A stretch of DNA of 64,000 bases. Origin: Hyperoplus lanceolatus (Eukaryota; Chordata; Actinopteri; Uranoscopiformes; Ammodytidae). Shown here one piece after another: positions 20,741-60,079 of this stretch (position 1 is the first letter of the stretch; each line of letters starts with the position of its first letter). The position numbers and the translations under genes are program-made. A model generated the notes under the pieces. It made no database searches. It saw only the letters and a list, made by a program, of their open reading frames with translations, and was not told the origin of the DNA. Location of the stretch: the NCBI GenBank assembly GCA_026929865.2, contig CM049404.1:31081001-31145000 (forward strand), read 5' to 3'.

Positions 20741-20820
20741 TATATAAAGACACATTTCCCTTCCCTAAGACATACAGCTGTTCCCTCAACCTCTCTGCAT
20801 CGGACATCACAGCAGCAAAG
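20741..20820 (+). promoter_or_regulatory. C-type lectin TATA box and 5' UTR exon
   Basis: TATATAAAG at 20741-20749, then a 5' UTR exon ending at 20820 with donor GTAACA. The coding start follows 109 bases later, directly after an acceptor (TTTCAACAG, ATG at 20930). An untranslated first exon followed by a leader exon is conserved in the duplicate at 30009-30088. Confidence 0.7.
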
Positions 20821-20929
20821 GTAACATTGAATAGGTTAACTACTTTCAGATTTCACTTCAAATTCTATTTTGGCATGGAGTGGCTTTAGTAAAAATACGA
20901 CCAACAATTACAAGACTTTTTTTCAACAG

Positions 20930-23900: not shown

Positions 23901-24939
23901 CTGGATTGGGTTATTCGATGCAATAAAGGTGAGAAATTTTAAACGGACTTGTGGTAGTTCAACCAAGTATGAGTAACTTGTTGCTACGAGAAAAAAAATA
24001 AGTTATCTCAAAATGATATCGCCTCGTAATTTAACCATTTGAAAAATTTGCCCCAATCTTTTGGCAAATCAGTGATCTTTGATTGGGGCAGTAATTTAGT
24101 ATTTCTTCCAGGAGGGACGTTGGATGTGGACTGACGGCACAAGGGCTGACTTCTTACCCTGGGCTCCTGGGCAGCCTGACAACGGGAGCGGAACAGAACA
24201 CTGTGGACATATTAACTTCAGAGGTAAAATGATTATGTCATGACTTCCTGAGGGTATTATGAATTGAAAAGAAACAAGCATACTTGAAAAATTGTGTCAT
24301 ACTGTACTGCTCGAAATAATTATGCAGGGCTCTAGACTAACTTCTTCACTGTTTATTCATTTTACTTTATTTTCTAAACAATTATAAAAAGTAAGAGGGG
24401 GTAGGACCAGAAAAGTTTTTTTTAACTTCTTCCTATCCCTATTGAACATGAACTATATTATTTGAGTTATGTATTTGTTGTTTAGGATCCCATTTGTTTG
24501 GTTTTTTTTATTTATTATTCTCCTTTTTTATTGCTCAATTGTTTTATTTATGTTTGTATTATTATTTTTTTAACCATGTTCAATAAAGACTAATAATAAT
24601 AGCACTGGTTTGGTGGCACAAGCTCATTATTTGGTGGCATGCATGTTGGATCAGTCTCTGATGATTTTCACATTGATTTACCGTGTGTTTTTGAATCCAG
24701 CCTTCAATGGGTTGATGATTTTGGTTCTTGATTTCCACTTTGGTTCATGCGCTTGTCCTAATTTGACTTAATAACTATCAGAGACATTGAAATGCATAGT
24801 CTGATTGGCTGAACAAGACATTTACTGTTGACCTTTTAGCATTTGCACTCAGTGATTTTTTCTTCCTACAGGAAAACCCCAGTGGAATGATGACCAATGT
24901 CACAATAAGAAACCTTTTGTTTGTGCCAGGAGAAAGTGA
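20930..24939 (+). CDS. Secreted C-type lectin, single CTLD, QPD/WND type
   Basis: Six coding exons: 20930-20995, 21090-21120, 23565-23647, 23794-23928, 24112-24223, 24872-24939 (495 bases, 164 residues). Signal peptide is about residues 1-22 ([16 protein letters not shown]...). After a short linker the CTLD spans about 34-164, with cysteines at 34, 35, 46, 63, 136, 152 and 160, WIGL at 97-100, QPD at 126-128 and WND at 147-149. QPD usually predicts galactose preference, and QPD with WND indicates an intact calcium site. The size and layout match small soluble fish lectins (ladderlectin, nattectin, and the type II antifreeze relatives), which act in mucus or plasma against microbes. Ice binding cannot be told from sequence. 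The second coding intron holds a LINE and two MITEs. Phases are consistent throughout. Confidence 0.88.
21228..22801 (+). mobile_element. 5'-truncated L1/Tx1-type LINE, young insertion
   Basis: Bounded by a perfect 17-base target duplication AAAGGTGCTTTGTGCTT (21211-21227 and 22802-22818) and ending in an A-rich tail. An open frame through 22520 codes the C-terminal part of ORF2 past the reverse transcriptase, ending with a cysteine-containing segment (CDSCKRAPASLFHMYWLCP, then FW) characteristic of the L1/Tx1 group. The frame has no stop from the truncation point to its own end, about 430 residues. It is inserted in sense in the C-type lectin intron, inside a TTAA-type MITE. Confidence 0.85.
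22802..23036. mobile_element. TTAA-flanked MITE split by the LINE
   Basis: The MITE begins right after TTAA near 21209 (AAGGTGCTTTGTGC) and ends CGTAACACCT before TTAA at about 23036. The LINE separates its first bases from the rest. A related copy lies at about 58150-58385 (shared blocks TAGCATTCTTTGCACTGATG and ACCCATGACAAAGGC). Confidence 0.6.
23119..23455. mobile_element. TTAA-flanked MITE (AGGTGCAGTGTGTA ends)
   Basis: TTAA at 23115-23118 and 23456-23459 bracket inverted ends AGGTGCAGTGTGTA and TACACACTGCAGGT. The same family is present in reverse orientation at 60661-61025 in the acetyl-CoA synthetase gene. Confidence 0.8.
24396..24602 (+). mobile_element. Possible LINE 3' tail
   Basis: A segment ending CCATGTTCAATAAAGAC followed by TAATAATAATA repeats, a style of 3' end common to truncated fish LINEs. 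No coding part remains. Family not determined. Confidence 0.35.
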
Positions 24940-25044
24940 AGCCTCCAGACATCTGCAACCACATTAACCATTACAATGTCACTTCCACCACGATAATGTA
25001 ACTGTGATGTCACTAAACTTGTTCTAATGATTCACTTGCTAAAA

Positions 25045-25159: not shown

Positions 25160-25701
25160 AGAAAAAAATGCATAGTGTGTTATTGTGATGGAATCCTCCA
25201 TTTTACCACGAGACCTGAACATTATCATACAGAGTGTTGTGAAATGAAGTAGCTGATTACACACCAAGATAAAGCGGACATGCGATTTAAAGCTTACCGT
25301 GTGAACAATGCATTTCACCACAGGTTTTATCAGAATCGCCTTGTGGGCTCAGGTGACACATCAAACAATAATCCAAATTTTGCATCAGATGGTTACATTT
25401 CTCCCAACACAATCTGCAGCTAATTTCAATTCAGGCTCAAACTCAATATTACTTAAATCTTTAAAAGGGAGAACACATGTCATGACTGAACACAAAAGTC
25501 CAATAATAAAGGATGCAAGATGTACTGATAAGACCAAAAAATTACTGTTATTATTCAGCTTTTCAGAGGACAAGATATTCAAACAGAATTGTAGTTATCA
25601 TTTTGTCAAGTCAACGGTGTTGCTCGTTAGTCATATGTGCAGCTATTTCAGCCAGTAAGGGAGACAGTATGAGCAGTATAAAAACTTGAAGAATTGTGAC
25701 G

Positions 25702-25751
<50 letters not shown>

Positions 25752-27460
25752 CACCGATATGTTTACACAGCCTTGAGGGGAACAGGGAATTGTTATGAAT
25801 GATAAAAATCAAATGCTACTGGTAGGTAAGGAAACTGTTATTATTCCTGTAATTTTGCCTTCCTAATTCTTGCCCTATTAATCCTCTTGTGACCCCTCAG
25901 ATTGACTCCCATAAGCCTAAACAACCAAACGCCGCTGTATAATGTGGTTAAAACTGGCTTAACTGTCTGCTCCTTGCATTGATTTATCGGTGTTAATAAT
26001 CTTAAAATATACTATGCACAAGAGGCACTTTTGATTATAATACCTCTGTCATACCACTTTGCATTAGGCCAACCCCCCAACTGTGATAGAATAAGCAGCC
26101 TGTCTACTCAAGTCTGATTGGCTGGAGGGTTTCCATTAACTTTTGATATACTGACACCTATGGAACTCCTCAAGTACTTCCAGTTTAACAATCTGTTCAC
26201 TGTTCCAAATTAATGCACTGCAGCCTGTTTTTCAAGATGAGTAACCATAGCAGCAGGACATAGACATATCCTTTGTTTACAAGTTGACGAGCCCAATAGC
26301 CCATGACTGTAACATTAAAAAGACACAATAGCATAAAACCAGTCAGCCTAATGTTGAAAAATATAATGCTAATTGGTTTATTGTTTTCTTCATGAAATGA
26401 TCATGCTAATAAAAAGATAGCATACAAGAATGGTATATAACCCTACTGGTAAATTGAAGACCATTATTTAAAGTTTGGATGGCAAGTTTTGGATCCTAAT
26501 GAAACCTGAATTCAAAATCCATCCACCTAGATAAATTAAATTAAAAAGTCTGAATATCTTATTTCCAATAGTAGGTGTGGTTCTTCAGTGCAATATCCCC
26601 TTGAGCACCACATGATGGCACTCCTATCACACGAGCTGTAAGAAGCACACACGGTACTAATGACAGTACTAAAATAAAGTGCTCAACTATCTAATGTTAA
26701 GCAAGGGTTATATCATGAGTAGGTGAGTAAGTCACGTGTTTGATTTGAAAATGTTAGTGACTTGCCTTTTAGCCACTACTGCCCTGTTTCACTGTCCAAC
26801 TGAGTTTACTGGTATCAATCCACTATCTCAGTCACTCAGGCTGCAGCCCAATGATACAAATGTTTGAAAGTTATTTTCTTTGTAAAATTTGTTACTGATT
26901 TGGGGATAATGACATGGCTGATTGGCCAGCTAAGACATGTTGTATAACATACAGGCCAATTGACAACTGGTCGCATCCAACGGTTCAGGCCCCCACTTTG
27001 TCCATTAATTCCTGATAATGGATGACACCTTGCATGGCATTATCCCTCACTGCCAACAACTCTGCATCTTTAAGAACTGAACCAGTAAACTCAGAGTTCT
27101 CAGACCCAGTCAATAACTTGCTTCTTGATAAAAGATCAATGATGTCAGTTTTAGTGAAGCCAGGTAACCAAAAGGTATCTACAAATTTGAGTCAAAAGCC
27201 AAACTTAGGGATAAGTAAGATAAATTCAGAGGATAAAATGAAATAACAATTTACACTGGATTTAGATTTTTAAAATGCTACTTTTCTGCAAATCAGTTCT
27301 GAACAGCACAACTACATTTAATTCATGTTTGAGTTATGTTAGAAAAAAAATACATCAATGCAAGGTTTCCAATTTAGTAAGTACTCCTACAGAAAACGAA
27401 CAGTCTGATACAATAGTCCTGCAACAAACCCCTTCACAAAGGTTAAAAAGTTCAGTTTCT
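25160..27460. other. Intergenic, no gene seen; (CA)n at 25707-25751
   Basis: AT-rich DNA between the C-type lectin gene and the second copy of its upstream region. No exon chain, RNA gene or recognisable transposon was found. Two adjacent open frames at 27022-27246 and 27275-27487 match nothing I recognise. Confidence 0.5.
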
Positions 27461-28705
27461 GTTAAGACTGTTTCTTTGATTATGTAGTTTGTGATCTCAT
27501 AATACTATATACAGCACCATCGTGTGTTGAACTGAGTGTAGTGTATGTGTTATAGACTTTATTTGGAATTCACAGCTCCATCAGATCAGATAACATTAAC
27601 AAGCAGAAGAATATACCTACTTTTACAACAGTTTACAGTATATTACTTTATAGAAGAGATTAATATGTATGAGAATAAAAGAGAAATTAAAATGGTTTTA
27701 CCTTCTTAATATCTCCCTGTTTAAAGGAGGCACACAAACCTGGCAAATCTGCTTAAACCTTACACCTCAGAAACAAAATTAGAAATTTAAATGACAACCA
27801 TTGCAGAGCGTTAAACAGCAAGTATAACAATTAACTAGGGTCCTAACATTGACAGAAAGACGTTCCAATTGTCCAAAACCAAAAACATCATCTATACTCT
27901 GTGAAGTGCACCAACCATAAAAAAGTAATTATGTCATCCTCACAGTCACCTGTCAATAGAGACCCAACCTCCACAAGAGGAATAACAGCAAATTAACAAG
28001 GATGAGGAAGTTTTTTAATGGGACAATGGCACCATTATTGGTAGACAAGATCATCCTTAAGATAATTCCAGAGACAGTATGGTTCACAGGACAAACATAC
28101 AGGGACAATGGCTCCATTATTGGTACTTAAAACACTTCCTCATGTGAAATGTAGTTTTCAACAATACTTCTAAATAAGCCACCACATGGCATCACTGAGC
28201 TGCCGATTTTTAATTCCCAACTGACACTATCACAGCCTCACATGCCAATTGTTCTTGTTTATTTGTTAAGCTCAATCGAAAGAATATGCAAGAATAATTC
28301 AAGTACATCAACTTATTTGATTATTATTTTTTTTGTTATGTACTGTGAACGTATACATCTTTTTAAATGTTATAGATTTTTTCAGTGTGATGGAAAATGC
28401 ATGATCCTAATAACAGATCTGATACGACTCATATTTTTCACTTACGTAAACAGGAAGAGGATGTGAAGGTACATTACTGTAAACAGAAATATACGAAAAC
28501 AATTCCCGTGCTGGTACTTCCCACAGGGAAGGGAGGCCCTCGTACCTGACCCATTTCTATCCAGTTACACCTGGCACATCAGTCATGCAATACTCTCTTC
28601 TTATAACAGTTCACTCCATAAGTCACTTCTAAAAATAAGTAACCTACACATTACTGAAATAAATAAGTATAAAATGTACAAAATAAAATATCACATAGAG
28701 CTTTA

Positions 28706-29725
28706 GGGTGTATTCACACTTGGAAAGTCCGCTAGTTCACTTGCTTTGGTCCAGACCAAATAGCGTTTAGATTTTTTTTGTTTGGTGTGGTCCACTTTCA
28801 TATTGCCCCTTTTGCAAGTGAACCAGCATTACGAAGCAAAACCACACGTGATCTGAGGTCATTCATTCATTGGACAGACATTCTGGGGTGGAGAGAAACA
28901 GGAAGCACGAATTTAAAACTGCGAAATATATATCATTGATATAATATGGGGTTAAAAATAATAAAATGGCCTACATCTAACCTATAAATAAAGAGGAAAA
29001 ACATCGGATTATTGTTGTTTCATATGGTTATAATATGTAGCCCTATGTCAATGCCACGTTATGTGGCGTGTAACCTACAATGTGAAACATCATTTTTACT
29101 GTAGTGTTGGTGCCGGACGCGCATCACGCGAGAAGAATAGGCTCAAGCTGACACTCAGCTGATTAAGCTGTGTATCAGCTGGGTCGGCGCAGTTCAGCTC
29201 CAAACTGACACGGGGTATTGACGGTCCGTACATGGGAAGCAAAATAAAAACACACATTTCTTGCGCAGCGTGAACCTGTTGGCACTGTGCGGGAGACGCT
29301 CCCCTCTCCTTCATCTGATCGCTGAACACATTCAGCATGTTTATGCGTCCTCTCGATCAAATGTAATATTGTTCTGGGCTCCCGGTCAAACCACAACGTA
29401 TCGTCCTAATAATGGCGACAACAACACTTTCCCATAATGTGAAACTGACGGCTATTTATTAAAAAAGAAAAGAAAGAAAAGGCACAGTGCCTCCTGCATT
29501 TGGGTCGGATCGAGTCCGGACAAATTCACACCACAAACGAACTGCAGCAGAGTGCGTTTGGAAACGCACCGAGACTACCTCTTCAGCTGGGTCTCGGAGC
29601 GTTTGTTTGGTCCGCCCCCGAGTGCGATTGCTGTATTCACACCTGCCTGAAAGATGCGCACCGAAGGCAGAAGTGCATCTGAGTTCGTTTCAACCGAACT
29701 AAACACGGCATGTGTGAATACACCC
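28706..29725. mobile_element. Harbinger-like non-autonomous element
   Basis: Inverted ends GGGTGTATTCACAC and GTGTGAATACACCC are flanked by TTA (28703-28705 and 29726-29728). The empty site is present in copy 1 at about 20452-20460 (GAGCTTTAGTCAATG). A 3-base TTA duplication fits PIF/Harbinger. No transposase is recognised in its 1020 bases. Confidence 0.8.
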
Positions 29726-30008
29726 TTAGTCAATGTGCAGAACTGACAGACTATCTAGTATTTGCTGACATCGAACTTGGAGGAAACAAACCTTTATCTG
29801 ATGGTGTTCCCACGATATGATAGCAGGATGTGTTTTTTATTTCTCTCTATTTCCGTGAGCTGGATATATCTTTCACCCCATCTTCTCATTGACACGTTCT
29901 TTCACATGAGGGGAGGGGATGGGGGTGGGGTGTGGCTCTTCAGGTAATATGCCTGGCCCTATCCATCTGAGTTTAAGATCCGCCTGGCTCTGCGTGATAC
30001 TACTAAAG

Positions 30009-30088
30009 TATATAAAGACACATTTCCCTTCCCTAAGACATACAGCTGTTCTCTCAACCTCTCTGCATTGGACATCACAGCAGCAAAG
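30009..30088 (+). promoter_or_regulatory. Duplicated C-type lectin TATA box and 5' UTR exon, now upstream of an RBL
   Basis: TATATAAAG at 30009-30017 and a 5' UTR exon ending at 30088 (donor GTAACA), almost identical to 20741-20820. This probably drives the gene at 30198-43317. Confidence 0.65.
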
Positions 30089-30197
30089 GTAACATTGAAT
30101 AGGTTAACTACTTTCAGATTTCACTTCAAATTCAATTTAGGCATGACGTGGATTTAGTAAAAGTACGACCACAAATTACAAGACTTTTTTTCAACAG

Positions 30198-33100
30198 ATG
30201 ACATCAGCGTTCCACTTTGCATTCTTCCTCTGTTTGACCAGTGGACTGTTGATTTCAGGAACTGTAAGTGCTATTTTTCTTTTAAGTAATTAACAGTTTG
30301 TTTAAAAAAATGTTGCTCAAAACTACCTTAAGACCTATGTGCACAGCATGTTGCTAACAACATTTATGAAAGGTTGATACTTCCAAAATGCTGGGCGTTT
30401 ATCCACTAGGATCAGACATGACCAAATGTAATGTTGTTATTTCAGTAAAACTTTAAAAAGATTTGTTGGTTCATTGAACACAATTATCACAATTTGTTAT
30501 TATTTATTTGTGTATATGGTTATGTTCACAGCAGTCCAGCGGGATTATTGGCCCCTACTCAGGTTGGTGGTTTATGCATGCATGTTATTTGTTCAATTAC
30601 ATCCAATGGCAGAAGTTCATACAGAAAACATTACATCTGATCTGCTCGATTACCTAAGTGCAAACCAAAGAAAGCAGGGAACAAACACACAATTAAAAAT
30701 GGTGTTGTCTCCATGGGTGTTTATACTGAGCTGCACTAGATAATAATAACCCTCTGACATATTGAATGTATTTACTGTTTTGTTATGTTTGTTATGCGTA
30801 TATTTAGCATGGAGCCGACTGTGAACATTTCACTGCAATGTATTGTGTATGTGACAAATAAAATCTGAATCTGAAACAATATTTTTGTGTAAGCTGAAAC
30901 ACAGTTTGACAGATGTATCTTTTTCAGTGCTGGCCGTGACCTGCTTGCTCCTGACAGTAGGTGAATATATAGTGCATTAAAATGCTTACATACCGTATAT
31001 AATTATTCCTTGAACATATTTCAACTTATATGTTCAATTCTGTTTTTCTAGACGTTTCCACAGAGAAAGTTATCACCTGTGACAACGGGGCCAATGTTCA
31101 ACATCTAAGCTGTGGTAAGAGTCAATACTTTACTCAACAAACAGTACATTGAAGGTTTGAAGACCTAAATTAATGGTTTCAATCAATGTCAAGATTACTC
31201 TAGAAACTAACATTTATTTTGGTTGATCATAAGGTGTATGTAAAGGTGTAGGATCAGAGCTGAGGCTGGGATAATGAAAGGGACGACATTGACCAAAACA
31301 TTACTTAGCTGATGTGCAGAAAATAGTGTTTAAATATTAGATTTTATAACAGAAACAACAATAGGAATTATAGCAGTGTTTCCCCTACCATACCAACCCC
31401 CCGCCAGGCCAACAGCAGCCTGACTTTAATTTTTAATTTTAATTTTTTATTCCGTAATAATAATTTGCGAGCGTCTGCGCGGTACTGTCGGTCTATCCCC
31501 CGTGTGCGCCTGTCTTTACAACCTCTCGTTTGATCATCCCATCAGCTGATCTGTGTGTCTGCTTGTGTGTGTGTGTGTGTGTGTGTCTACGCACGGCGGG
31601 CGCGATGCGCGTGTGCATTCGGTGCGCACTTGTTAAACACGGAAGCCAATGAGCAGGAGCATGACTAGCAAGCAAACGTTGAACTAGTGGCGAAAATAAA
31701 ACCAGCGCCTGCTCTATGGATATATTAAGGACTCAGTAACAGGGACGTTGAACAGGAAAAAGTGCTGAGCAAAACTTAGAAAGTTAAAATCGCTTGGCAA
31801 CACAACCAATCTGTATCAACAGCAGAGACAGCGCTGAAAAAAACGGCATGCACACGTTTCAGTAAGTTTACAGAAGTGCCACACTGCTACTGCCTTTGAC
31901 ATTCTCAGAAAAGCATTAATTTATTTTCAAGGGACATATTAATTTATTGTTTTAACTGTTAAGTTATCTTGAAAACAGCAGACTATTGTAGGCCTTCAAG
32001 CTTTATTTATTTGTATTTTCAATGCTACTTTATTTTTATGTTTAAAATTGAGAAATAGGCTAGATGAAATATAATGGTCGGAATAGGGAATTTGCCTTAT
32101 GTAGCACACATGTTGATAGGCTAATTAGTCCAGGCATTATATAACTTGACCTCTCAAAAATTGCAACAGAAACCATTTCAACTGTTTTTGACTCATGAAT
32201 ATGTAATTAATAACATACTAAAAGTCTTAAGGAATCCAAGTGGTGGAAAGTTATTTTCTAAGGGGTTTCTTAACCATACCTTTTCTGTCAATTTTCGGCT
32301 TCCTAAAGTACTGTTTTATGGTAGAGGGGATATGTGCAAAATTGTTAACCTTTTCAGAAAAGCTTGAAACTTGGTACACTTATATAGTTTGGGGCTCTGA
32401 ACATTTTCAGATATTAAGCCATTGCAAAATCGAATCATGGTTGCCATGGCGACCATTTTACTTTCCGCCATAGCCTAATTATGCATTTTTCATCATAACT
32501 CCTGAACCAAACATAATACCACATAACTAGTGATGTCTAACCCTATGTTTTCATGGTCAGGGATTACTATGATACCACATACAACATCAAAAACAGTTAA
32601 GGTTGGGCGCCCTTAACTCAGTTGGTAGGGCTTCCCCCCCGGGCCGGGCCCAGCAGCAGATCCGGGTCCCTCTCTGCCCCATTTCACCTCTGTCTCTCTG
32701 CACTATCAATAAAGCATAACAATGCCCAAAAAATATCTAAAAAAACAACAAAAAAAAAAAAAGAGTTAAGGTCAATAGTTAAGGGTGAATCCAATGTTTT
32801 TCCAAAAATATAAGCCCAGAATCCAAAAACATCGCTGTGACTTTACAATTGGGGCCTATGTTGCATAAACATTGTGCATCAAGTTTTAATTGTGTTCTCT
32901 AACAAAGACATAGGCTTAAAGGTATGTAAAATACTATAACAATATAAAAAAAACACAAATATTTGTGAATGCTAAACTGGCACAAATTAACATACATTGT
33001 TGCACTGATAAACATACATTTTAATATGAAAGTATTTTGGTGCACAGAAGAACTACTAATCCAAAGTGCAGCCAGAGCAGTACTAATGCAATGTGAAAGG

Positions 33101-36100
33101 GGTAAATCAATACCATGCATACCATGACTATGCATTGCCCTCTGACCCCCTCTGGAGTGTGGTAACTTGAGAAAGGATATGTGAAAAGACATATTTCAAT
33201 GTAGCCTTTTGTAATTGACTAATAAAAAAACTCAACTTAGTATTCAGATTGACTTTTACGTAGGGCTGCCCCCTGAAAGTCGATGATTCGAATCATCAGT
33301 CATGAACCCCCGCAGCCGACGCAGATTCTTCAAGTCGAACCATCGTCTTTTTTTTTTCAGTCAGTGTCCATTATATTAGAAGAGAAAATAAGAGCAAAAC
33401 ACTGACGTTATCATGCCAGGGCAATAGGTGGCGGTAATGTGTCACGTCACGTCAAACGCCATAGAAGAAGAGTGGTGAAAACTAAACAGGAAATGGCAAA
33501 AGAAAAAACCAAAGCAGATGTATACGTTTGCGCTGTGCAAATTGCACACCATATATGCCTGTTGATTCTGCTCTGCTATGTGCTGTAATAAAGATAGGTC
33601 GCCTTGGAAACAATTAAGCCCCTGTAGACCGCGAGCATCTCGTCTTTTTTAATCACCATTCTCTGCAGCTGTCACCGGCTCTGTGTTGTTTCTCTCTCAC
33701 GGGCTCGCCGAGGCTCAGGCACTCTCGCGCTTCAGCCGCGCTCCAACTCCCCGGTTCACTCGTAAACTGTTTTTTAAAATATATCCAACCTGGAGGTTGT
33801 TTATTTTAAGCTCCATTTTCGGTGGTCTTAAAGTCTGTTTTCAACTGTTTTCGGGTTGACGGTTGGTCAAATATCTCACTCCAATGCACTTTTCTGATTG
33901 ACAAATAGTATCACGAATAGTCGAATCTCTGGTTTGAACAGGCAGATCCGATTCGACTGAGAAAATTCCGAGTCGGGGACAGCCCTACTTTTACGTTTAT
34001 TTAATAGTTGTATGAAGCATTGGAGCAAGTTTTCTCAAACATAGTCTGGTTTTCCTCATCATCTTTCTCATCATCATCTCCAACCTGAGATGATTTTGCA
34101 CCCTTCTTGAATGTAGTTTGTCCATCCATGCTAACCAAAATGGTGTTTCTGATGGCTTTTGCCATAGAAAGGTGCGAGACACTGCACAAGCTTGGATCCA
34201 AGCAGTAATTATGTCTTTCTAATATTTTTTTTCTACATTAGATTTGGAGAGACAGAGTTAAAATGGGGCAAAGAGGGGAAGACGTGCAGAAAACTTAACC
34301 AGGCTGGATTTGAACCCGGGTCCTCTGCGGCATAACCACTGTGCCATGAGCACCCCCTGTAATTGTGTCTTTCTTGGAGATAGTTCAGAACTGTGTGCAT
34401 TGTTAACTTCAGCACAAACTGGCATGAAGTGAAGCCATGTCAGATGTTGCAGCCATGTCATACCTTGCAATCTTGTGATGCCACCACTGGTTTTCATACT
34501 GTCATTAGAACCTGCTCAAGATCCATGGACATGCCAGCCCATAGGCGATCACTCCACATGGAATCCCCCTACAGATCTCTGGTTAATATCTGGATGGTGC
34601 TAATGGACCAGTGTTGGGAAAGTTCTTTTTCTACGTGAACTAGTTCAAAGTTCAGTTCACACCCTTTAAAATGAACTAGTTCAGTTCATAGTTCATAATT
34701 CAAAATTATGAACTAAGTTCACAGTTCAAAAATTAACTAGTTCATAGTTTTTTTTTTTTAATATGTTGCTGCAGGCTATTATTTTTCTAAATAATTGCCA
34801 CATTACCAACCACAGACAGAAATTATTTCAATGACATTCAGTCCACACTAGAAACCAGCTGCAGCTTTTCCCCTACAGTATATTCTCAAAAACATGAGGA
34901 AAAAGTTGCTGTTTGATGGTCTTTTTAAAGAGGACCTATGATGCTTTTTGACTTTTATGACCTATAAACGTTGTTATGATGATTCATAGTCATGCTTAAC
35001 CATACTAAATTATCAAATAATGACTTACATGCATTTCGACATATTCCCTGCTGACCGTCTGGGGTGTCTGTGCAGAGCACTAAACACTATTCTAGCCAGT
35101 CGAGAAGTCACGTCTTCAAACCGGTCTACCCTTTCATAATTTGTGACGTCGCATAAAACTTTGTGACGTCTACACGCGGATGTTTCCATGTATGATAATG
35201 CTGTCACTTCCCTGTTCGCGTCTGCCTCGCGCCCTTATAGGTCCATGCTCGCGCTTCCCGCCACTGAAAGTGTTCCGGAAGGAAGGTAACCAATCACAAC
35301 GGAGTGGGGTTTGCAGGAGGGGGGGGCGGGAGATGGCCGAAGCACAGGCGGAGGGAGCCGAAGCACACACACTCAAGTGTTGACAGGATGTGCTGGATCG
35401 CCAAAATAAGAGAAAGAGCTTCCCGAAAATCTACATAGTTTTTTGTGATGTGATTCGTGTCAGGTTGCTCTATAGCAGTGTAAAACAAGAAATTAAGACC
35501 AGAAAAGTAGCATAATAGGTCCTCTTTAATGAAGAATTATTCTAACAAAAACGGTTAAGGTGCAAAAGTTTTTCCATTTTTATAATTTTCCAAACCTGGA
35601 AACAATTCACATGAAATGTCATTCAAATAAAGCAACACTGGAAAAATATACCAGGCAGGTTCTACAAACAAATTACAACTTAAAATAGTAAAACCCTCAA
35701 GGAGACCATTCTAAACTGCAGTGTAGGGCCTACTGTTAACAACAAAGTCCAGAAGATGTGTTGACATAATTATTAACACAAACCCAATCGGAAGTAGGTA
35801 ACAATCATACGAAGGAGAGGTAGAGCCTGAGGCTAGGTCCATGGCCTGAGTAAGTGCTGCTGCATTCATTTGTTTTTGTTTTTTTCCCGCGGTGTTTCGC
35901 ATTTTGATGACGCAGCGGTGTTGAGTCGCTGTGGTGGCATGTGTTGCCAGATTGGGTGTTTTTCAGCTACATATTAAGGGCTGTTTACGATGTCTTATAG
36001 CGGGGGGTTTCTATGGAAACCTGGCACTGGATGAACGATTGAACGACTGTAAGAGTGCCGTTCACAAACGCCAGAATCAGCGCGTTCGCAAAAACGTTCA

Positions 36101-39100
36101 TGAGGCAGAAAAACATACGTTCAGTTCACGTTCGCCCCCAATATGAACGAGTTCATGAACGATCGTTCATTGAACGCGTTCAGGCACAACACTGTAATGG
36201 ACCTTGCACATCCTCTGCACACAGGCCTGCCCACACAATTGGCTGGGCCCCTGAAAACCTGTTTGTAGACTCAGGAAAATTACAGAGTAACTAGCCTGTT
36301 CTGTTTATAAGAATGTAGAAGAACTACAAAAGGTACCCAACCTGTTTTTTCATGGGGTCCAAATACTTTTCACAACCACACCCAGACACAAGTAGCAGGT
36401 AGGCCTAGATGTGTTTTCCGTGAGCAGGAACGACTCAGGAAATATAATCCAGACAAAACTGTTTAATATCAAAACCCAATCTTGTCACCATTTGGCACAC
36501 AAAGGGTTTATAGGATGGATTATGTTTGAAACAGTTACACTCCGCTGTGCTCAATCTGAAACATTTTGAACATTTCTGCTTTTCTACTGCTTTTTAAATG
36601 GCCTTAAGCGGCTCTGTGTAAACACCCAACTTTGAATAGATATTGAATAGTTTGCAATGTGGCGAGGCTATGAAAGCTGTTTGTGTTGCTTTAGATATCG
36701 GCACTAGCAACGCACGTGGACATGTTTTTTTCTTTCTCATTTCCTGTAAGCGTTGGATCTCATGACGTTTTTCAAGTTAATTCAAAGAGTTCTTCATACC
36801 TCCAGTCAAATTGTTCTTCTTTAGTATCCACTAAAGCAATCTAAAAGTTTTCACAATTTGCACGTTTTCTATACTACTAGTTTCTGGTATAAGATACATT
36901 TACACTAATTGACTGCACCAAATATTGCACTCTTTTGTATTTCTGCACATGACAATTAATCATTTGAAATATTTTGGTGTTATTGTTGAAATAAATAACG
37001 CTTAAAAATCAACATCAACAACAAATTCTTCACACAAAAAAGAAAAAAAGGCGGTTCTCTACATGAATAACCAAACCAACCTACCCTTCAAAACTATAAA
37101 GTTGGCCTATATTTGGTTGCAACATTTAGGCTTAGTTCATTCTGCTCTCATCACTGCAAAACTACTGAAAACATTACTGAAATCATTACAAAAAAGTTCT
37201 TAATCTTTGAACACAAATCTGTTCTTTCAGTTATTTCCAACTTCTTTGTGCCTTGTATCTTTCTTTGCATTAAGAACTTTTTAAGGTCTATTTAAATTTT
37301 AAATTTTTAGAAACAATACAGAAAGCAGGACCTTGGTGGTTACAATGATTAAAACAGGATGATGCTGCTCGTCAGCTTCATTGTGGTATCACTCGGCTGG
37401 TTGGTCAATTGGCCAGGTTTCTGAAAAACTGGTCAGACCTGGCTGGCCGTGTCAACCTGAAGACTTATGTCAAAGCCTTTAAAAGTTATAGTCACCAAAG
37501 GGAAATTCTTTTTCACAAAAATGTACTTTATGAGAACAGATAATTTAAACCTATTTGTAGACTCAGGACAATGACAGAGTAACTAGCCTGTCCTGTTTAT
37601 AAGAATGTAGAAGAACTACAAAAGGTACCCAACCTGTTTTTTCATGGGGTCCAAATACTTTTCACAACCACACCCAGACACAAGTAGCTTTTCTACTGCT
37701 TTTTAAATGACCTTAAGCGGAGCCGCGGCTCTGTGTAAACACCCAACTTTGAATAGATATTGACATAAATATCTAAAAATCTAAAAATAAAGGTTATCTA
37801 GGTAGGTTCTTGGCTTCCAAAGACCATGGGCCCCCCCAAGTGGCTGGGCCCTAGAAAGCTTTCACACTGTCTACCCCTTATGGGCGGCCCTGTCTGCACA
37901 TACTGTAGATGTGAGCTGATTTTGTGTAGAGATGATGCCCTGATACTGCCATGAAAGGAAGCATTTCTGATATTGTTTCAAGGTGAAGTTCCCAATTCTC
38001 AGAAACTTGCAAAATATGTCTACCAATGGATTTTAAGGATTCAGTTTTGCATTTGAGAAGTAAGTCTTATTCTGAGAATCACATCAGAATGACAAGCCTT
38101 CTCTGCAGACATCGTCTATCAGCTTTGCATATATTGCAGCAACTTAATTGACACCAGAGTTTTATAAACGATCTCCAGCAGGTATCATCTGCTGATGACA
38201 TCTCTTCATCATAGTATTTTGGATCTCCTTGCAGCTAATGGGGAGTTACAACAAGTGCAGCAGGCAGAATCAGGCAATTAAGGACTCTTTCAATGCAAAT
38301 CCCATCCAAACATCTTCCCTGTCATAATGTGCACAACGGCTGCATAAAAAATCATTATCACTTCCTCTTCCCAGCATCAACCATAACATGCCCAATGGAC
38401 CCCAACAACTCATATCAGTGTGGAAGCCCCCAAGTCACTAACCTCTGGCTCAGCTGCTTTCATAAGAAAATGCCTTCCACCAGTGGTTGATAAAATGTGA
38501 TGATTGGGGTGGAATTGTGGCAGTGGGCATGTTCACATAGGAACTTACATGCGGAGTAGATGCATGTAGGGTCACTACGTCTCATATCAACCAATGGGGT
38601 AAACACAAAGGATGTTTACCCCGGGTGATTGCCATGCTGTGCAAATTGCATCATACTAGACCATGCTGGCCTTTGTGAGACAAACAGGATGGCAGTTTTC
38701 CATATGAGTTCCAGGTCTGCAGTCGGGTCATATGGTTCTGATCTCTCTCTCTAACTAATAAAGGCAAAAATTACCCAAAAATAACTTGACATTGTTATCT
38801 TGAAAACGTTTAATACATTTATGGCAAGAAAATTAAATCAAATGAATATTATGACTTCATAGTTAATCATTTATTTGCACATGCATTGTACCATATCTCT
38901 TGTTAAACAAAGTTGTCGGTTGATATGGACAGTAATGAACGATTTATGTGGATATCAGAAAAGAATGTATGTATAAAAAAAAAAAAACATTGGATTCACC
39001 CTTAACTATTGACCGCGCATACTCTTTATCAGCTCTTACCACCGGGCCTAAAAAAAAATTCTAGGGGAAACACTGTATAGGTTGTACTTAGGGCCGTCTG

Positions 39101-42100
39101 GAATAATTTGAATATTCTATTCGTTTGTTAGGTTAGTAGTCAAACATCAATTATAAAAGTAAAACAATTAAAAACTCTTTGGGACTTTTAGGGCACACAT
39201 GGCATTCGTACAGTCCCCAAGCACGATTGATGGCTAAAGTGTAGTTAATTTGACCAGTGTGAGTGCTCTGTTCCGTGCTCAAGCACTGTAAAGATCCTAG
39301 GCCAGGGGTCGGCAACCCGTGGCTCCAGAGCCACGTGTGGCTCTTTCATCCTTCTGTTGTGGCTCCCTGTGACTTTGGAAAATAAATAATGAGTATTTTA
39401 TTAAAATTTAATTTAATTTTAGTTTGTTCATTTTAAAATATAATTATGAATTTGAAGATTATGATAAACTTGTAACATTAAAATAAAAAGTTTTTAATAT
39501 TTTTATCGCGGCCCCGAGAGCAGTCGCTGGAGACAGGGGAACCACGGCGCACTGCGTTGCGGTGCTATGAGAATCATAGACAGCCGCTCCTCTTGGACTC
39601 GGTCCAAGACTTGGGGAATCAGAGGGACAGGTGGGAACGCATACAGGAGTGTGTTCGGCCATGGTCTGTGAGCGAACGCATCCACCCCGAGCGGGGGATT
39701 GTCCTTCGCGCTGAGAGAGAACCACAGCGCGCGTGTGTTCTCCCGTGTGGAGAATAGGTCGACTCCCGCCTTCCCAAACTTGCTCCATATCTGACTGATC
39801 AGATCGTGGTGCAGAGTCCAGTCTCCTGGTCGGGGTCCCCCCCTCGACATTATGTCTGCCCCTCTGTATAGGACACCGGGGATGTACACTGCTCTGATGG
39901 AGAGCAAGTGTGTGTGCGTCCAGCATAACAGCCGTCTCGCTATGCTCAGCAGCTGTGCCGAGCGCACGCCCCCTTGGCGATTGATGTATGCTGCTGTCGC
40001 CTTGTTGTCCGTGCGAATCATTACATGTTGATTCGTTAACATTGGGGCAAAGTGTTGGATTACTTTCCACACAGTGAGTAACTCCAATGCGTTCATATGC
40101 ATGATCATGGGGGCAGGCCAAACGCCGCCCACTAGTGAGACTCGCATGTTCCTCCCCAGCCCGACAGAGATGCATCCGTGAACACTGAGATGTGTGACGT
40201 TGTATTCGAATACTTGTTTGGAAAAATCAACGGGTATTTCAAGTCTATAAAAGAGTATTTGGACAAAGCCCTAGTTATAATAGCATTTCGGTTTCCAATG
40301 TCCAAACTGTTAAAATAAATAATAAATAATGTTTTTTTTTCTTACTTTTATTCCCTGCTGCAGATAGTGGCGTGATCAGTGTCCAGGGAGCTCTGTATGG
40401 ACGTGCAGACAGCCAGACCTGCAGTGAGGGAAGACCTCCACAACAGCTTACCAACACACAGTGCTCTCAGCAGGGCACGGTGGATGTCCTCAGGAGAAGG
40501 TATATCTGTAAAATACAAAACATCAACATTTTAGGATACATGTACTACGGATGGGCCCGAGTAGTGAATTCCTAGATCGAGGAATCGCATTTTTTTTATC
40601 TAGATTTTTATTCGGAACGCATCCGTCTGCTGTAATACTGTTTAACCTACCGTATGTTTACTGCTTATTGCTAAAAAACAAAAGTAAGACCTCATAGTAA
40701 ATACAAGCAGCGAGTAAGTAAATTAAATAGTATAATTCAAATAAATATATCAGTGTTCATGAACGTTAGTGGCAGCCACCATTCATGCATTTCCGATATA
40801 CGCTCGCTACAAAGGGCGTCTGGGCTGCAGAGAGCAGCGCCATTAGAAGTCATTGAAGCTTTTGGTGCGAGTCCACAGTAAAAAAAGAAAAAGTCTGAAA
40901 TAAGCCACGGAAAAAAATCCTGGTCGGCCAATATTGGTATCTGCAGGTTAGACTCTTTGTTTACATTGCAACCCCTATTAATTTTTCTACAATTATTACT
41001 GCACACGAAGATATAATATTGATTGAGAATCTCACATGAGACCAAGATTACACGCTAAAAAGGTAATGAGCGCAAAATGCAATGTAAAAAGTAATATTTA
41101 GTTTCTGGCTGCTAACAAATCTGGCTGGCTGGTACCTTTTTTTTCCATCTACCAGCCACCTTGGCTGGTAAGCCAAAAAGCCTGGTTGTACCTTTTAAAG
41201 TAAAATGCATCAATCGGATGCACTTTGAGAGGAAAACTCAACTGTGTCTTACGTCAGCTGTTTAGTACTATTTTCTGGAATAATTCGGAGACACTGAGTC
41301 ACATAAATTCGAAGCTTTTGTAGAAAAAGTTGTTTTGTATTTAAATATTTGTTGTTTGAATATAAATAATAATTTACTATGAAAAATCAAATATTCATAA
41401 AAAATGAGTACAGGCCATTTCCTCTGATTGTAGATGGTTATTGCTGTCTTTATGTCTTTTGTAGGTGCGATGGCAAGAGAGTGTGCGAACTAAACACAGC
41501 AATCGTCCCAACCTCGGATCCCTGCTTTGGCATCTATAAATATTTGGAGACCACCTACACCTGCATCCCAGCAAGTCAGTCTGCATGAAATGACTATTAG
41601 CGGTTTATCAAAAGCAAAGCTTATAGACTTTTTGAGGGAATAGAGGGCTTGAAAGTTCAAAACTATCGTAGCAGGGACAAGCCCGAGTAGTGAATTCCAA
41701 AATTGAGGGATCGCATTGATTCTTTGTGATTTTCTCGCCATGGCCTGGTTCACAGCTGCGTCTAGCGACACAGAAAACAACTTACACACTTCCGATCGTC
41801 TCTTGAGGCTTGTAAATGAAACTCTTAATGGAATCAAATCCAGTACAGACGAGTATGCAGAAAATAGAAAGAACATCTGAGAGCTACTGTGACTGATTAG
41901 AAAGAACATGTTACCAGCTGGCTAGCGTGTCAGAAGTAATATTGTAATATACAATAGCTAAAGACACACATTATATTTTAATAGAGATATGTCTAAAATT
42001 ATTTATTTTACTTCAACAGTTCACCGTGTTATATGCTACGACTCTTCGGCAAACCTTATTTGTGGTAAGGTCATTGTAAAATAATAATACAAAATAACAA

Positions 42101-43317
42101 AATATTTAATTATATATTCATTGCATTTCAACACTTATTTAATATTGTAATTTTCAGATGACGGGCAGGTTATCTTTGTGTACGGTGCTGATTATGGACG
42201 TCGTGATCGAACCACGTGCTCTTACAAGCGTCCGGCCTCTCAGATCCACAATGTCGACTGCTATAACCCCACCAGCACAGTGGCTAAAAGGTACAATCGC
42301 CCTCTCTTTGTTGATTTTAACATCATGTTGTGAATTGTATATGTGAAATTGATGGTCCAGAATACTAGTTTGTACAATATTAGCTACAAGTTGAACTGAT
42401 TGCTGATAACGTCTCTCAATGACCCAGATGTCATATGTCTCAGTTCAAATTTAAGTCTGTGTTCACTCACATCTATCTGCATCCACAGGTGTAACGGGAA
42501 AAATAGCTGTTCTATCAGCGTGACCACTTCAGTGTTTCCAGACCCCTGTGTTGGCACTTACAAATACCTGGAGTTGGCCTACACATGTCAATGTAAGTAT
42601 CTTAAAGGCCCCATCAGGCTGTTTCACTTCACAAAAGCTAATCTGTAATCATATTGTTAAAGGGAAGTGGTAAAGAAGCACTTATCTAGAGATATTTCTA
42701 TATAACGCTGCAAATACTGTAATAAAAAAAAGCCAATCCTCAGTAAATTGAAAAGTAGTCCGTAAAGTGCAGCCACATTCGTATACATTATTTTAAAAAG
42801 ATTGTCATTTTTTATGCTTATTAGACAGTTTGGAGAGAGAGTTGAATTAAAGGTGTCAGCGATTCAGGGGCGCCCTTAGCTCAGTTGGTAGGGCGTCCCC
42901 CCCGGGCCGGGCCCAGCAGCAGACCCGGGTTCGATTCCCGCCCGCGGCCGATCTCTGCATGTCACTCCCCTCTCTGCCCCATTTCACCTCTGTCTCTCTG
43001 CACTATCAATAAAGCATAAAAATGCCAAAAAAAATCTAAAAAAAAAAAAAAAAAAAAATGTGTCAGCGATTCTGCAGAATGCTTGTTGTCAAAATCAGTG
43101 AATATCTCCTCAAGATCTGCTACCTGTCCAACCGTCCGCACTGTGTGTGTTGATGATTTTGACAACATGATTTTAACAATCATTCTACAAAATCGCTGAC
43201 TCCACCTTTTATTGTAGTTAATAACAATTATTCAACTATTTCAATTAAGTTATAGTAAATGGATATTTAATTTTCTGACATGAATATGTTATTTGTTCTT
43301 TTTCAGATCCTGTTTGA
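30198..43317 (+). CDS. Two-domain L-rhamnose-binding lectin with a C-type-lectin-derived leader (putative chimera)
   Basis: Predicted exons: 30198-30263, 30532-30562, 30928-30960, 31052-31114, 40364-40499, 41465-41574, 42020-42064, 42158-42290, 42489-42592, 43307-43317 (732 bases, 243 residues, open). The first two exons copy the leader of the C-type lectin at 20930 ([10 protein letters not shown]... then [10 protein letters not shown]). The third is the second signal-peptide exon of RBL genes ([11 protein letters not shown]). Then come two SUEL domains at about 44-146 and 147-240, each with eight cysteines, YGR ([22 protein letters not shown]) and DPC with G and YKYL motifs, ending YPV. No RBL first exon like that of the gene at 46830 was found upstream. 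The join is phase 1 to phase 1. The RBL exons are secure; the leader assignment is inference. The first domain intron is 9.2 kb of nested transposons. Confidence 0.72.
30737..30893 (+). mobile_element. LINE 3' tail fragment
   Basis: Ends GTATGTGACAAATAAAATC followed by TGAATCTGAA, a 3' end common to truncated fish non-LTR elements. Homology to the other plus-strand RBL gene begins just after it (AAACACAGTTTGACAG), so the fragment marks the breakpoint between C-type-lectin-derived and RBL-derived sequence. Confidence 0.5.
32604..32763 (+). mobile_element. tRNA-derived SINE
   Basis: Starts GGGCGCCCTTAACTCAGTTG, a tRNA-like head with an A box, and ends CACTATCAATAAAGCATAA plus A-rich tail. Flanked by AGTTAAGGT (32595-32603 and 32764-32772). 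Same family as 42866-43059 and 57843-57990. It lacks part of the B-box region present at 42866. Confidence 0.8.
33261..33987. mobile_element. hAT-like MITE, 8-base target duplication
   Basis: Ends TAGGGCTGCCCCC and GGGGACAGCCCTA, flanked by CTTTTACG at 33253-33260 and 33988-33995. Both halves carry GATTCGAAT-like motifs. It is 727 bases with no coding capacity. Confidence 0.85.
34221..34359 (-). mobile_element. tRNA-derived SINE
   Basis: On the minus strand it reads GGTGCTCATGGCACAGTGG ... GGTTCAAATCC, the A and B boxes of a tRNA-like promoter. Flanked by TAATTATGTCTTTCT (34206-34220) and TAATTGTGTCTTTCT (34360-34374), one mismatch. Confidence 0.8.
34609..36194. mobile_element. hAT-like element, 1.6 kb, containing a MITE
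   Basis: Ends CAGTGTTGGGAAAGTTC and GGCACAACACTG with the 8-base duplication TAATGGAC (34601-34608 and 36195-36202). Repeated GTTCA/TGAAC motifs fill both ends. Removing the MITE at 34929-35525 leaves about 1 kb of non-coding DNA. Confidence 0.85.
34929..35525. mobile_element. TTAA-flanked MITE nested in an hAT element
   Basis: TTAA at 34925-34928 and 35526-35529, with inverted ends AGAGGACCTATGATGC and GCATAATAGGTCCTCT. It must be younger than the hAT element at 34609-36194 that contains it. Confidence 0.85.
36261..37761. repeat. Direct repeat pair with an internal deletion
   Basis: 36261-36650 and 37553-37761 are direct copies. The second lacks the part corresponding to about 36397-36574 and has GAGCCGCG inserted near 37720. 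The remaining 36.2-39.07 kb inside the large hAT element is AT-rich without a recognised gene. Confidence 0.7.
39303..39490. mobile_element. hAT fragment (CAGGGGTCGGCAACC end)
   Basis: A left terminus of the vertebrate hAT type beginning CAGGGGTCGGCAACCCGTGG. No matching right end is seen, so only a fragment remains, abutting a DIRS fossil. Confidence 0.55.
39503..40180 (-). mobile_element. DIRS-type retrotransposon fossil (fragment)
   Basis: A minus-strand segment similar to the RNase H region and following segment of the fish DIRS group (contains [17 protein letters not shown] and [15 protein letters not shown]). Only this internal portion is present. Termini, the rest of the polymerase and the tyrosine recombinase part are not seen. 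It is a truncated, non-functional fossil of modest age inside an RBL intron. Confidence 0.75.
42850..43212. mobile_element. MITE in the last RBL intron, interrupted by a SINE
   Basis: Ends AAAGGTGTCAGCGATT and AATCGCTGACTCCACCTTTT. The same MITE occupies the same intron of the gene at 46830 (about 50213-51620), so it predates that duplication. A relative lies at about 6980-7070. Confidence 0.65.
42866..43059 (+). mobile_element. tRNA-derived SINE, empty site in the paralogue
   Basis: tRNA-like head (GCGCCCTTAGCTCAGTTGG, GGTTCGATTCC) and tail CACTATCAATAAAGCATAA plus poly(A). Flanked by a perfect 13-base duplication GTGTCAGCGATTC (42853-42865 and 43060-43072). The paralogous intron at about 50213 has a single uninterrupted copy. 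Confidence 0.92.
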
Positions 43318-46680: not shown

Positions 46681-46829
46681 TTCTCTAGTTTGCTTTACCC
46701 AATACGTGAGCTGGGCATGAGCCAGCAGGTAAATCAATGTGTACAAACCTCGACCCAAAAGAATAAATACAGATACATAATACTGAGTCCCTCCAGCCAG
46801 TCGCACAGTTATCCTGCTACGAACACACC

Positions 46830-49800
46830 ATGCTTTGTTTCAGCCTTCGCAGCAGCACACTGCGTGAGTACACCATCTGACCGATGACTGGAATGATAAT
46901 TACTTAGTTTATATAAATGCTTCTTTGAATTTTTTTTCTTGTTGATGAAGTCAAGTAGCTTTTTTTTATTTTTTATATCTGTTTAAATGTTTAGGGTGCT
47001 GGATAGAGTGACATATGATTTGAATGTGTTTCAATCTGTTTTTTTGTGATTTGAAGGATAAATGTAGAAGTTATTATTATGGTGTCAGTGTGATTCTTCT
47101 GGGTAACTTGAAGTTAAAGATTTTCTAAGTACTTCTTGTTAATTCACAGGACACTACAACATTTGTAGTCTAAAACACAGTTTGACAGTGATGTGTTTTT
47201 TTTTAGTGCTGGCCGCAACCTGCTTGCTTGTGACAGCAGGTAAATATATTGAGCATTATGCTTACATTTATGCCTTGAACACATTTCAACTTATACATTC
47301 ATATCTGTTTTTTTAGACACTTCCACAGGGAAAGTTATCACCTGTGAAAGCAACGACAATGTTCACCGTCTAAGCTGTGGTAAGAGTCAATACTTTACTC
47401 AACAAACAGTACATTGAAGGTTTGAAGACCTAAATTAATGGTTTCAATCAATGTCAAGATTACTCCACAAACTGACATTTATTTTGTTTGACCGTGCAGT
47501 GTGTATGTAAAGGTGTATGATCAGAGCTCTGAGGCTGGGATAATGAAGGGGAAGACATTGACCAAAACATTACTTAGCTGAATAATTTGAATATATAATA
47601 TATATAAGTTAGGTTAGTATTCAATGCAATTTTTTTTTATGCAACAAAGCTTGTCATTTACGGAGCACTCACACTTGGCATTTGTACCCTGCTCAAGTAA
47701 GATTGACAGCTAAAGTCTAGTTTGTTTCACCAGTGTGAGTGCTCTGTTCCATGCTCACTTCCTTGCCCTAGGCAGAGTTAAGGCTTTTTCCGTGCAATTA
47801 ATTCGCTCATTAATAATAATTATTTTAAATTTTTTCGAACAGAGTTCTATTTTTCTAAAGACATCACTTCCGATAGTCAGATGCGTCAAAATTCACATTC
47901 CAAATTATTCGCATTTTTGTGCCGTTTATTCACGATGTATCTGGTGTGCAAGAGCCTTTAGGAACAGGTGTGCTTTGGCACGGTACAGATGCTTATGAGC
48001 CGACACAAACACACAAATATAGTATTTCAACACTCGTTTTGAAAAACCAACGGGTATTGGAAGTCTGTAAAATGGTATTTGGGACAGCCCTAGTTATAAA
48101 AGCTATTCCATTTTCTATTATCCACTCGAATAATATAAAATTATATAAGCAATAATGTTGTTTTTTCTTACTTTTTTTCCCTGCTGAAACAGATAGTGGC
48201 GTGATCAGTGTCCAGGCAGCTCTGTATGGACGTGCAGACAGCCAGACCTGCAGTGAGGGCAGACCTCCACAACAGCTTACCAACACACAGTGCTCTCAGC
48301 AGGGCACGGTGGATGTCCTCAGGAGAAGGTATATCTGGAAAAATACAAAACATCAACATTAGTAGCAAATAATAATCATGATAAAAAATCTGATGTTAAT
48401 TAAAAAATGTTATAGTCGATTTTCTCAGATTATAGGGTTGTGCTCTCCTGGCACAGAAAAGAGTCAATGTACATGGTTCTTGCTGTTCGAATATATTCAT
48501 GTCTCCTGTAGGTGCGATGGCAAGAGAGTGTGCGAACTAAACACAGCCATCGTCCAAACCACAGATCCCTGCCCTGGCACATATAAATATTTGGAGACCA
48601 CCTACATCTGCAACCCAGCAAGTCAGTCACATGTCTGCATGAAATGACCGTTGACAATTTATCAATAGCAAAGCTTAAAGACTTTTGAGGGAAAAGAGGG
48701 ATGGAAAGTTCAAAACGCAGTAAACCATCGTAGTTTCTCAGATCTGTTGCAGTTATTGAATTGTACCAATATGTCTTTGAAAGGTGCAGTATGTAGAAAT
48801 TATTTTAAGTTTCACAAGAGACAACCGTACCTTCTGAAATTATTTGGAAGGGAGGTGTTAAGGGAGAGTTGTAATCTAGAATTTCACCACTAGAAATAAA
48901 TATTAAATACTATTTAATATTACTATATTAGTGGTTTGAATGGAATGAAATGCAGTATAGACAAGTATGAAGAATATCTGAGAGCTACTGTGACTGATTA
49001 GCATGATGTTCCTAGCTGGCTAGCATGTTAGAAGTAAGCTATCCTAGTGAGCATTTCCCATGTAACCCTAGCACAAAACGTTTAATCATGACAAGTTAAA
49101 TTTGGAGACTTTACTTTAGAAAAATATTTCATTTCAAACCTTATTGACATTATGATTACCCATATTTTTCAAGCACTTGAACTCACCCAGCGTGGTAAGT
49201 TAAATTTGAATAGAGGAATATCAAATCTAATATATGATTAATTTTTCTTCAACAGTTCGCCAAGTTATATGCGAGCACTCTTTGGCAAACCTTTTTTGTG
49301 GTAAGGTATTTGTACAATTATATATATATTTTTTTTTTAATCTATAATTGCATTTCGACTGTTATTTAATATCATAATCGTTCATGTTTGTCAGATGACG
49401 GGCAGGTTATCTTTGTGTACGGCGCCGATTATGGACGCCGTGACCGAACCACGTGCTCTTACAAGCGTCCGGCCTCTCAGATCCAAAATGTCGACTGCTA
49501 TAACCCAACCAGCAAAGTGGCTGAAAGGTACAGCCACCCTCTCCTTTGTTGATTTTAACTTCATGTTGTTTATTGAGGAAGTAAAAGTCCATACTACTGG
49601 AATTGTACAATTGTACTCAAATGACTTAACCAAAGGGTGCTGTACTATGGCTGACCCTGCGCAATGATGTCACCCGTTTGGAGTGTGATTTCTAGAGAGG
49701 GGAATCACGGGATATGCTAAAAAATACAAATTTCCATGTAGCTTTGTGTTAAATGACAATCAACACAAATTCACTAACTAAATATGTCTTTGTGCACATC

Positions 49801-52790: not shown

Positions 52791-53049
52791 CTTTAACGGT
52801 AATAATTTATGATTTATTGAAAATAGACTGTAAAACCTCCATAGAAGTTGCTTGTCCATTTCCTGTTTACATTTTCCAACACTAAATGTAAAATGGTTGA
52901 TGCCCCACACAAGGCCTACTTATATTTTTTCACAAGAAAACGCCAATGACTAAGCACAGGCCTTACCTTTAGAGAAGCATCTTTCGTGACTGTTTGCGTC
53001 CTCAGAGTCCGTTGAACTTGTATAGCAGCAGCGGGGCTTCGCAGCTAGC

Positions 53050-55590: not shown

Positions 55591-55593
55591 TAA

Positions 55594-55846: not shown

Positions 55847-55859
55847 TTAAGAACTGCAG

Positions 55860-55905
55860 CTGCGTTTGGGGGGCTTTTTGTGAGAGGAGCCGACTGGCCG
55901 TTTAT

Positions 55906-55939
<34 letters not shown>

Positions 55940-57170: not shown

Positions 57171-57175
57171 GCAGT

Positions 57176-57398: not shown

Positions 57399-57432
<34 letters not shown>

Positions 57433-59230: not shown

Positions 59231-59293
<63 letters not shown>

Positions 59294-60036: not shown

Positions 60037-60079
<43 letters not shown>

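Follow-up and report, generated by a model that had tools for sequence, protein, structure and literature searches.

Can a rhamnose-binding lectin (RBL) gene that has no start of its own be read from the promoter and leader of a neighbouring C-type lectin (CTL) gene? This question is raised by a 64,000-nucleotide stretch of the Hyperoplus lanceolatus genome (C10:31081001-31145000, hereafter the window, in whose coordinates positions are given unless C10 is named; the genome comprises 807 Mb in 527 contigs), where the 5′ exons of a CTL gene (CTL2) are followed on the plus strand by a run of RBL exons (RBL1). An intact relative of each half lies on the same strand of the window. CTL1 (20457-24940), the paralogue of the gene that donated the 5′ end, has its CTLD exons, a 164-aa open frame with AG/GT splice sites and a Pfam match to Lectin_C. 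RBL2 (46830-51719), the paralogue of RBL1, is complete: it has nine exons, among them an exon 1 of its own (46830-46863), a coding sequence of 669 nt (222 aa and a stop), AG/GT at every splice site and a Pfam match to SUEL_Lectin. The exon models of CTL1, RBL2 and the fused coding sequence used below are working models whose splice sites were checked for AG and GT.

RBL1 has no recognised start exon of its own

According to an earlier note on this DNA, RBL2 possesses a first exon for which no equivalent precedes position 30928. A genome-wide DNA search bears this out: with RBL2 exon 1 and its promoter as query (46700-47400), no second copy was found among the best candidates scored in the 807-Mb genome. 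Apart from its own locus in RBL2, the query matched RBL1 alone, where the match sets in at query base 465 (47164); since the search leaves out common words and scores its best candidates only, it may miss a 34-nt exon that has diverged strongly. Searches by tblastn with short signal pieces for RBL first exons returned mostly chance matches beyond the exons of RBL1, RBL2 and a third gene, RBL3 (C10 6.18 Mb, loci L051/L053), and in RBL3 the roughly 560 bases before exon 2 showed no evident exon 1.

The snakehead lectin (SHL) gene has been described with nine exons and a signal peptide split across exons 1 and 2 (PMC3269628). Because exons 2-9 are all present in RBL1, this published plan indicates that exactly exon 1 is missing, and it is also the reason why we take RBL2 exon 1 to be of the ancestral kind. 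There is no methionine in RBL1 exons 2-9, nor any in-frame ATG between the nearest upstream stop (30852) and exon 2. With exon 1 missing as well, RBL1 is dead unless a foreign exon upstream provides the ATG for an ordinary RBL protein.

One conceivable supplier is a first exon of another kind, upstream of 30928 and unrecognised by us, from which RBL1 would be expressed. A scan for stretches running from an ATG to a phase 1 donor (donor score of at least 4 out of 7) gave two candidates in 30264-30927 and 21 in 25200-30197. These densities, 3.0 and 4.2 per kb, are roughly double the 1.7 per kb of a comparison stretch at 53000-64000, which holds 19 candidates. The donors of CTL2 and RBL1 score only 4 to 6 on this scale, so the scan cannot separate true from chance exons. 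However, no candidate in 25200-30927 scores 6 or more, none in 30264-30927 reaches 5, and the DNA search found no second copy of RBL2 exon 1, so that we regard a separate start exon as unlikely.

A near-identical CTL 5′ end lies directly upstream

The start exon that can be recognised upstream is that of CTL2. Its 5′ end consists of a putative TATA box (TATATAAA, 30009-30016) with the same sequence as in CTL1, a putative 5′ UTR exon with an unmapped start (30040-30088, donor gtaaca, corresponding to CTL1 20771-20819), a leader exon ending in phase 0 (30198-30263) and a linker exon ending in phase 1 at the donor gttggt (30532-30562), all on the plus strand. Counted over ungapped aligned bases, CTL2 and CTL1 agree at 298 of 310 positions in the proximal promoter, 46 of 48 in the UTR exon, 101 of 109 in the UTR intron and 65 of 66 in the leader; farther upstream, two distal blocks match at 970/987 and 175/177 bases. 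The leader has 28 matches genome-wide, including both copies in the window. The linker exons diverge more than the leaders do: the CTL2 linker, a homologue of CTL1 21090-21120 (77% over the surrounding 61-bp block), matches it at 22 of 31 bases ungapped, or 25 of 28 when three gaps are allowed. Intron 1 of CTL2 retains sequence that is common to CTL paralogues elsewhere and absent from CTL1. It is possible that gene conversion of the 5′ end, acting on an older CTL pair, explains this pattern of similarity.

In secreted C-type lectins (Lectin_C) a CTLD follows such a 5′ end. CTL2 resembles them in promoter, UTR, leader and linker, which are as in CTL1, but no CTLD exon was found after it: a tblastn search with the CTL1 protein over the window, the 8 kb preceding it and the 20 kb following it detected no CTLD exon beyond those of CTL1, and apart from CTL1 and the leader of CTL2 every match had an E value of 1.2 or worse. 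A genome search with PF00059 (132 matches, with the best 150 of 366 candidates scored) was discarded as a test for a CTLD near CTL2, as it misses even CTL1; it is uninformative in the window because the CTLD of CTL1 is split over exons. The previous description of CTL2 as a segmental duplicate of a CTL 5′ region that ends without a CTLD thus stands as far as the near-identical promoter and leader and the tblastn result are concerned, but mere truncation of a CTL1 copy does not account for CTL2, which differs from CTL1 in intron 1 and linker.

The region upstream of CTL2 also carries an insert of about 1 kb (28707-29717) that is absent from CTL1; it ends in GGGTGTATTCACAC and GTGTGAATACACCC with TTA on both sides and looks to us like a Harbinger-type element. 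The CTL upstream block recurs at 2614-5034, 15017-15404, 18783-19770 and 27531-28525, with 67-97% identity. In CTL1, intron 2 holds a 2.3-kb insert (21158-23495) with the ends GGTAACACTTTA and TAAAGTGTTGCC, which by eye seems to contain a LINE-like coding stretch.

A fused reading frame with two possible products

RBL1 (30928-43317) proved to be the next set of exons downstream of the CTL2 leader and linker on the same strand, as had been reported. It begins with exon 2 (30928-30960), a 33-nt exon of phase 1-1 that encodes the second half of the original signal peptide and is 84.8% identical to RBL2 exon 2 (47207-47239). In the spliced model, and by comparison with RBL2, it continues with exon 3 (31052-31114), where CRD1 starts, exon 4 (40364-40499), exon 5 (41465-41574), exon 6 (42020-42064), where CRD2 starts, exon 7 (42158-42290) and exon 8 (42489-42592), and the spliced model ends with exon 9 (43307-43317), which contains the stop codon. 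The CTL linker meets both exon 2 and exon 3 in phase 1, and the coding sequence rebuilt from leader, linker and eight RBL exons comprises 732 nt (243 aa and a stop), in agreement with the phase 1 junction and the 243 codons claimed before. When exon 2 is left out, the frame stays open for 232 aa and a stop. All acceptors of the joined model are AG (10/10) and all donors GT (9/9); on a crude scale of up to 7 that separates true from chance donors poorly, the linker donor scores 5 and the nine remaining donors in CTL2 and RBL1 range from 4 to 6. The anatomy of a chimeric gene is therefore present: two unrelated genes contribute exons that share a strand, have compatible phases and read in one open frame. 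The length of that frame was dropped as support for the fusion: matching phases already entail it, and the 243 open codons are no independent evidence.

The joined protein contains two SUEL_Lectin stretches (PF02140; E = 3e-37), as does RBL2. Among PDB sequences, of which 12 distinct ones matched the RBL part at E values up to 0.001, CSL2 aligned over 191 residues (E = 1.9e-75), followed by CSL3 (E = 7.7e-47); we take both to be chum salmon lectins. Since the alignment begins at residue 2 of the CSL2 chain, the mature lectin would start near KVITC and be complete without the CTL-derived part. As for the binding of L-rhamnose or D-galactose expected of an RBL, the YGR and DPC motifs are present, but CRD2 has FPDPC where RBL2 and RBL3 have FGDPC. 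The predicted mature product is thus an ordinary CSL2-like RBL with two CRDs, in which only the promoter and the signal peptide would be new. Compared with the fish lectins CSL2, CSL3 and SHL, RBL1 is alike in its two SUEL_Lectin domains and in exons 2-9 of the nine-exon plan (PMC3269628), but it lacks exon 1 with the 5′ UTR and the start of the signal, and its recognised upstream start exon comes from a C-type lectin gene.

The two forms differ at the N-terminus. Exon 2 gives the 243-aa form a second hydrophobic stretch after the CTL signal and an extra cysteine, while the 232-aa form has one hydrophobic stretch. A normal mature N-terminus would therefore require either skipping of exon 2 or further trimming, and we would expect the 232-aa form to be secreted better.

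A young LINE fragment lies at the junction

Between the linker and RBL1 exon 2 lies the 3′ fragment of a LINE in sense orientation (30745-30875). Of 47 candidates in the genome, 40 matches were scored, namely the fragment in the window and 39 other copies, two of which are identical to it across 131 bp. The LINE tail could be read side by side in five of six fetched copies, the sixth (L058) being without the anchor word. Homology between RBL1 and RBL2 is firm from 30888, 12 bases past the LINE 3′ end at 30875. The earlier note had placed the start of this homology at about 30895, just after a LINE tail; the position moves to 30888. An extension of the homology to the exact LINE edge (30876-30887) was rejected, as 890 of 5000 random 14-mers scored as well.

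No target-site duplication of the LINE was seen, the longest exact word common to both flanks being 5 bp. The 181 bp between linker and LINE could not be traced to CTL intron 2 or to the DNA upstream of RBL2. They scored 26.5 against CTL1 (shuffle mean 20.8, maximum 36.5) and 34.5 against the region upstream of RBL2 (shuffle mean 37.7). Against the CTL-related loci L004, L005, L007 and L008 the scores stayed under the 95% shuffle level, and against L003 the score slightly exceeded it (46.5 versus 41.5, maximum 51).

The absence of differences in 131 bp sets an upper bound of 2.3% on private change in the fragment (rule of three). Over nine segments of non-coding sequence, RBL1 and RBL2 differ at 133 of 1334 aligned bases (3.2 to 18.3% per segment). 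Given these two values, the loss of exon 1, if it is tied to the LINE, would be younger than the RBL duplication.

The fragment also brings a poly(A) signal into the critical intron, with AATAAA at 30857 in sense and the T/GT-rich stretch TTTTTGTGT 20 bases on, which could shorten transcripts. In the extreme case the CTL2 promoter would fire and every transcript would end here, leaving a short RNA of leader and linker and no RBL1. Sense orientation and the downstream T/GT-rich stretch speak for such an early end, but splicing often overrides a poly(A) signal that lies within an intron, and the first two acceptors of RBL1 follow, by position, 65 and 189 bases past the signal. We consider this outcome very improbable.

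Proposed origin by a LINE-linked deletion

A LINE that is truncated at its 5′ end, carries no visible target-site duplication and lies no more than 12 bases from the edge of homology suggests either an insertion accompanied by deletion of target sequence or a recombination between two LINEs. Insertion with target deletion is depicted in a review of target-primed reverse transcription (PMC2881922). The junction at RBL1 resembles the non-LTR insertions shown there in its 5′-truncated element, in the missing duplication and in the loss of adjacent sequence, but differs in that the size of the deletion is not measurable and that LINE-LINE recombination would look identical.

The account that we favour, tentatively and at slightly less than an even chance when taken as a whole, is as follows. 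Of two RBL genes in tandem, RBL1 would have been the upstream one, and a recent deletion joined to the LINE fragment (30745-30875) would have taken, as judged against the paralogue RBL2, its promoter, exon 1 and most of intron 1. This would have left the promoter, UTR, leader and linker of the neighbouring CTL gene, whose CTLD exons are missing, directly upstream. The RBL exons would then be transcribed from the CTL promoter, with the linker spliced either to RBL exon 2 (243 aa) or to exon 3 (232 aa), and a CTL signal peptide would lead to the secretion of an ordinary RBL with two CRDs. The anatomy, the phases, the outcome of the genome-wide search for exon 1, the likeness of the LINE to other copies and the 12-base distance of firm homology from it are observed; that a LINE insertion or a LINE-LINE recombination caused the deletion, and that the chimera is transcribed, spliced and secreted, is inferred. 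A narrower version, in which the very young deletion made a working chimera, its RBL being expressed in the tissues and induced in immunity like a CTL and skipping RBL exon 2 to leave the CTL signal peptide as the only one before the mature lectin, is less likely than not, though a serious candidate.

The new lectin had previously been attributed to exon shuffling. Order, phases, the lack of an own exon 1 and the lack of a CTLD all agree with that proposal, but neighbouring lectin genes were probably brought together by a LINE-linked deletion and not by the landing of a duplicate, and the mature part would be an ordinary CSL2-like RBL. We also rejected the view that RBL1 is the truncated end of a tandem duplication: the upstream copy keeps its left flank, and a copy without exon 1 should accordingly lie downstream. 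As a tandem duplication would truncate the 5′ end of the downstream copy and not that of RBL1, a later deletion fits better. Compared with the earlier proposal, the likely LINE-linked mechanism and the relative age are new, and the "new lectin" would shrink to an exchange of promoter and leader on an ordinary RBL.

Among known systems, the chimeras of Drosophila yakuba described by Rogers et al. 2017 (PMC5460883) likewise have a gene body set behind a neighbouring gene's promoter and 5′ exons, and a change of expression is expected. They arose by tandem duplication with regulatory exon shuffling; RBL1 instead has a LINE fragment at the junction and is better explained by deletion. Among the papers listed in a literature search, mostly of papers open without subscription, no report of a CTL-led RBL appeared; a single paper, on rotifers, mentions both rhamnose-binding lectins and a chimeric gene. 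If RBL1 is transcribed, it would be a simple and recent case of a retrotransposon-linked deletion putting an immune effector under the promoter of another immune gene, and its steps are traceable since this genome also contains intact paralogues of both lectins and relatives of the LINE. If it is not transcribed, the locus would be a fresh pseudogene that automatic annotation could merge into a false chimeric model.

Coding constraint and the pseudogene alternative

Over exons 2-9, RBL1 and RBL2 differ at 66 of 635 bases without a single indel, whereas their nine non-coding segments, which were picked because they can be aligned, contain 29 gap events in 1334 aligned bases (coding versus non-coding, Fisher P = 2e-5). 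Exons 2-8 are of equal length in RBL1, RBL2 and RBL3. Between RBL1 and RBL2, dN is 0.105 and dS 0.141 (ratio 0.74), with a ratio of 1.29 in CRD1 and 0.62 in CRD2. From these data it can be inferred that both copies stayed in frame for most of their history. As the loss of exon 1 appears recent, the counts say little about RBL1 after that event. With RBL3 as outgroup (exons 2-8), the RBL1 lineage received 4 synonymous and 23 non-synonymous changes and the RBL2 lineage 8 and 16; in this polarisation 51 changes were assigned and 14 were not, codons with several changes blur the counts, and two listed steps cross a stop. In CRD2, exon 8 (42489-42592) of RBL1 reads FPDPC where RBL2 and RBL3 read FGDPC, a change that we take to adjoin a conserved RBL motif. 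The 23:4 excess of non-synonymous changes on the RBL1 branch, together with FPDPC, would fit relaxed constraint.

The same excess speaks for a rival reading, in which RBL1 would be a recent pseudogene that lost its promoter and exon 1 without any productive replacement, next to a CTL2 5′ end that is a separate dead remnant and shares phase 1 with it by chance. Phase 1 is common in genes for secreted proteins, which makes the phase match weak evidence for a functional join. The LINE shows 0 differences over 131 bp from two other copies, and if the deletion is equally young, even a gene that has lost its function should still have an intact frame. On the other hand, promoter, UTR exon and leader of CTL2 are nearly those of the intact CTL1, so that transcription into RBL1 is plausible, and every splice site of the joined model is AG or GT. 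Weighing these points, we regard a pseudogene as a serious possibility, albeit one that we would not expect to be the true state of the locus, and keep the LINE-linked deletion with transcription from the CTL promoter as the preferred reading.

Further features of the RBL genes

RBL exon 4 (40364-40499 in RBL1, 48193-48328 in RBL2) is 98.5% identical between the two genes, compared with 83.6% for the preceding intron and 79.8% for exon 8, and identity is 96.8% over the 31 bases that align past the end of exon 4. This near-identity suggests local gene conversion or strong constraint. Intron 3 of RBL1 (31115-40363) measures 9.2 kb against 0.8 kb in RBL2 and is mostly unmatched in the RBL2 intron; the excess probably consists of transposon inserts. 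Additional RBL exons lie on the opposite strand at 7318-11243 and at C10 31077-31080 kb, in repeated and inverted blocks, and two of the Pfam matches among them cross a stop. These opposite-strand exons suggest that the locus is part of a larger, mixed lectin cluster.
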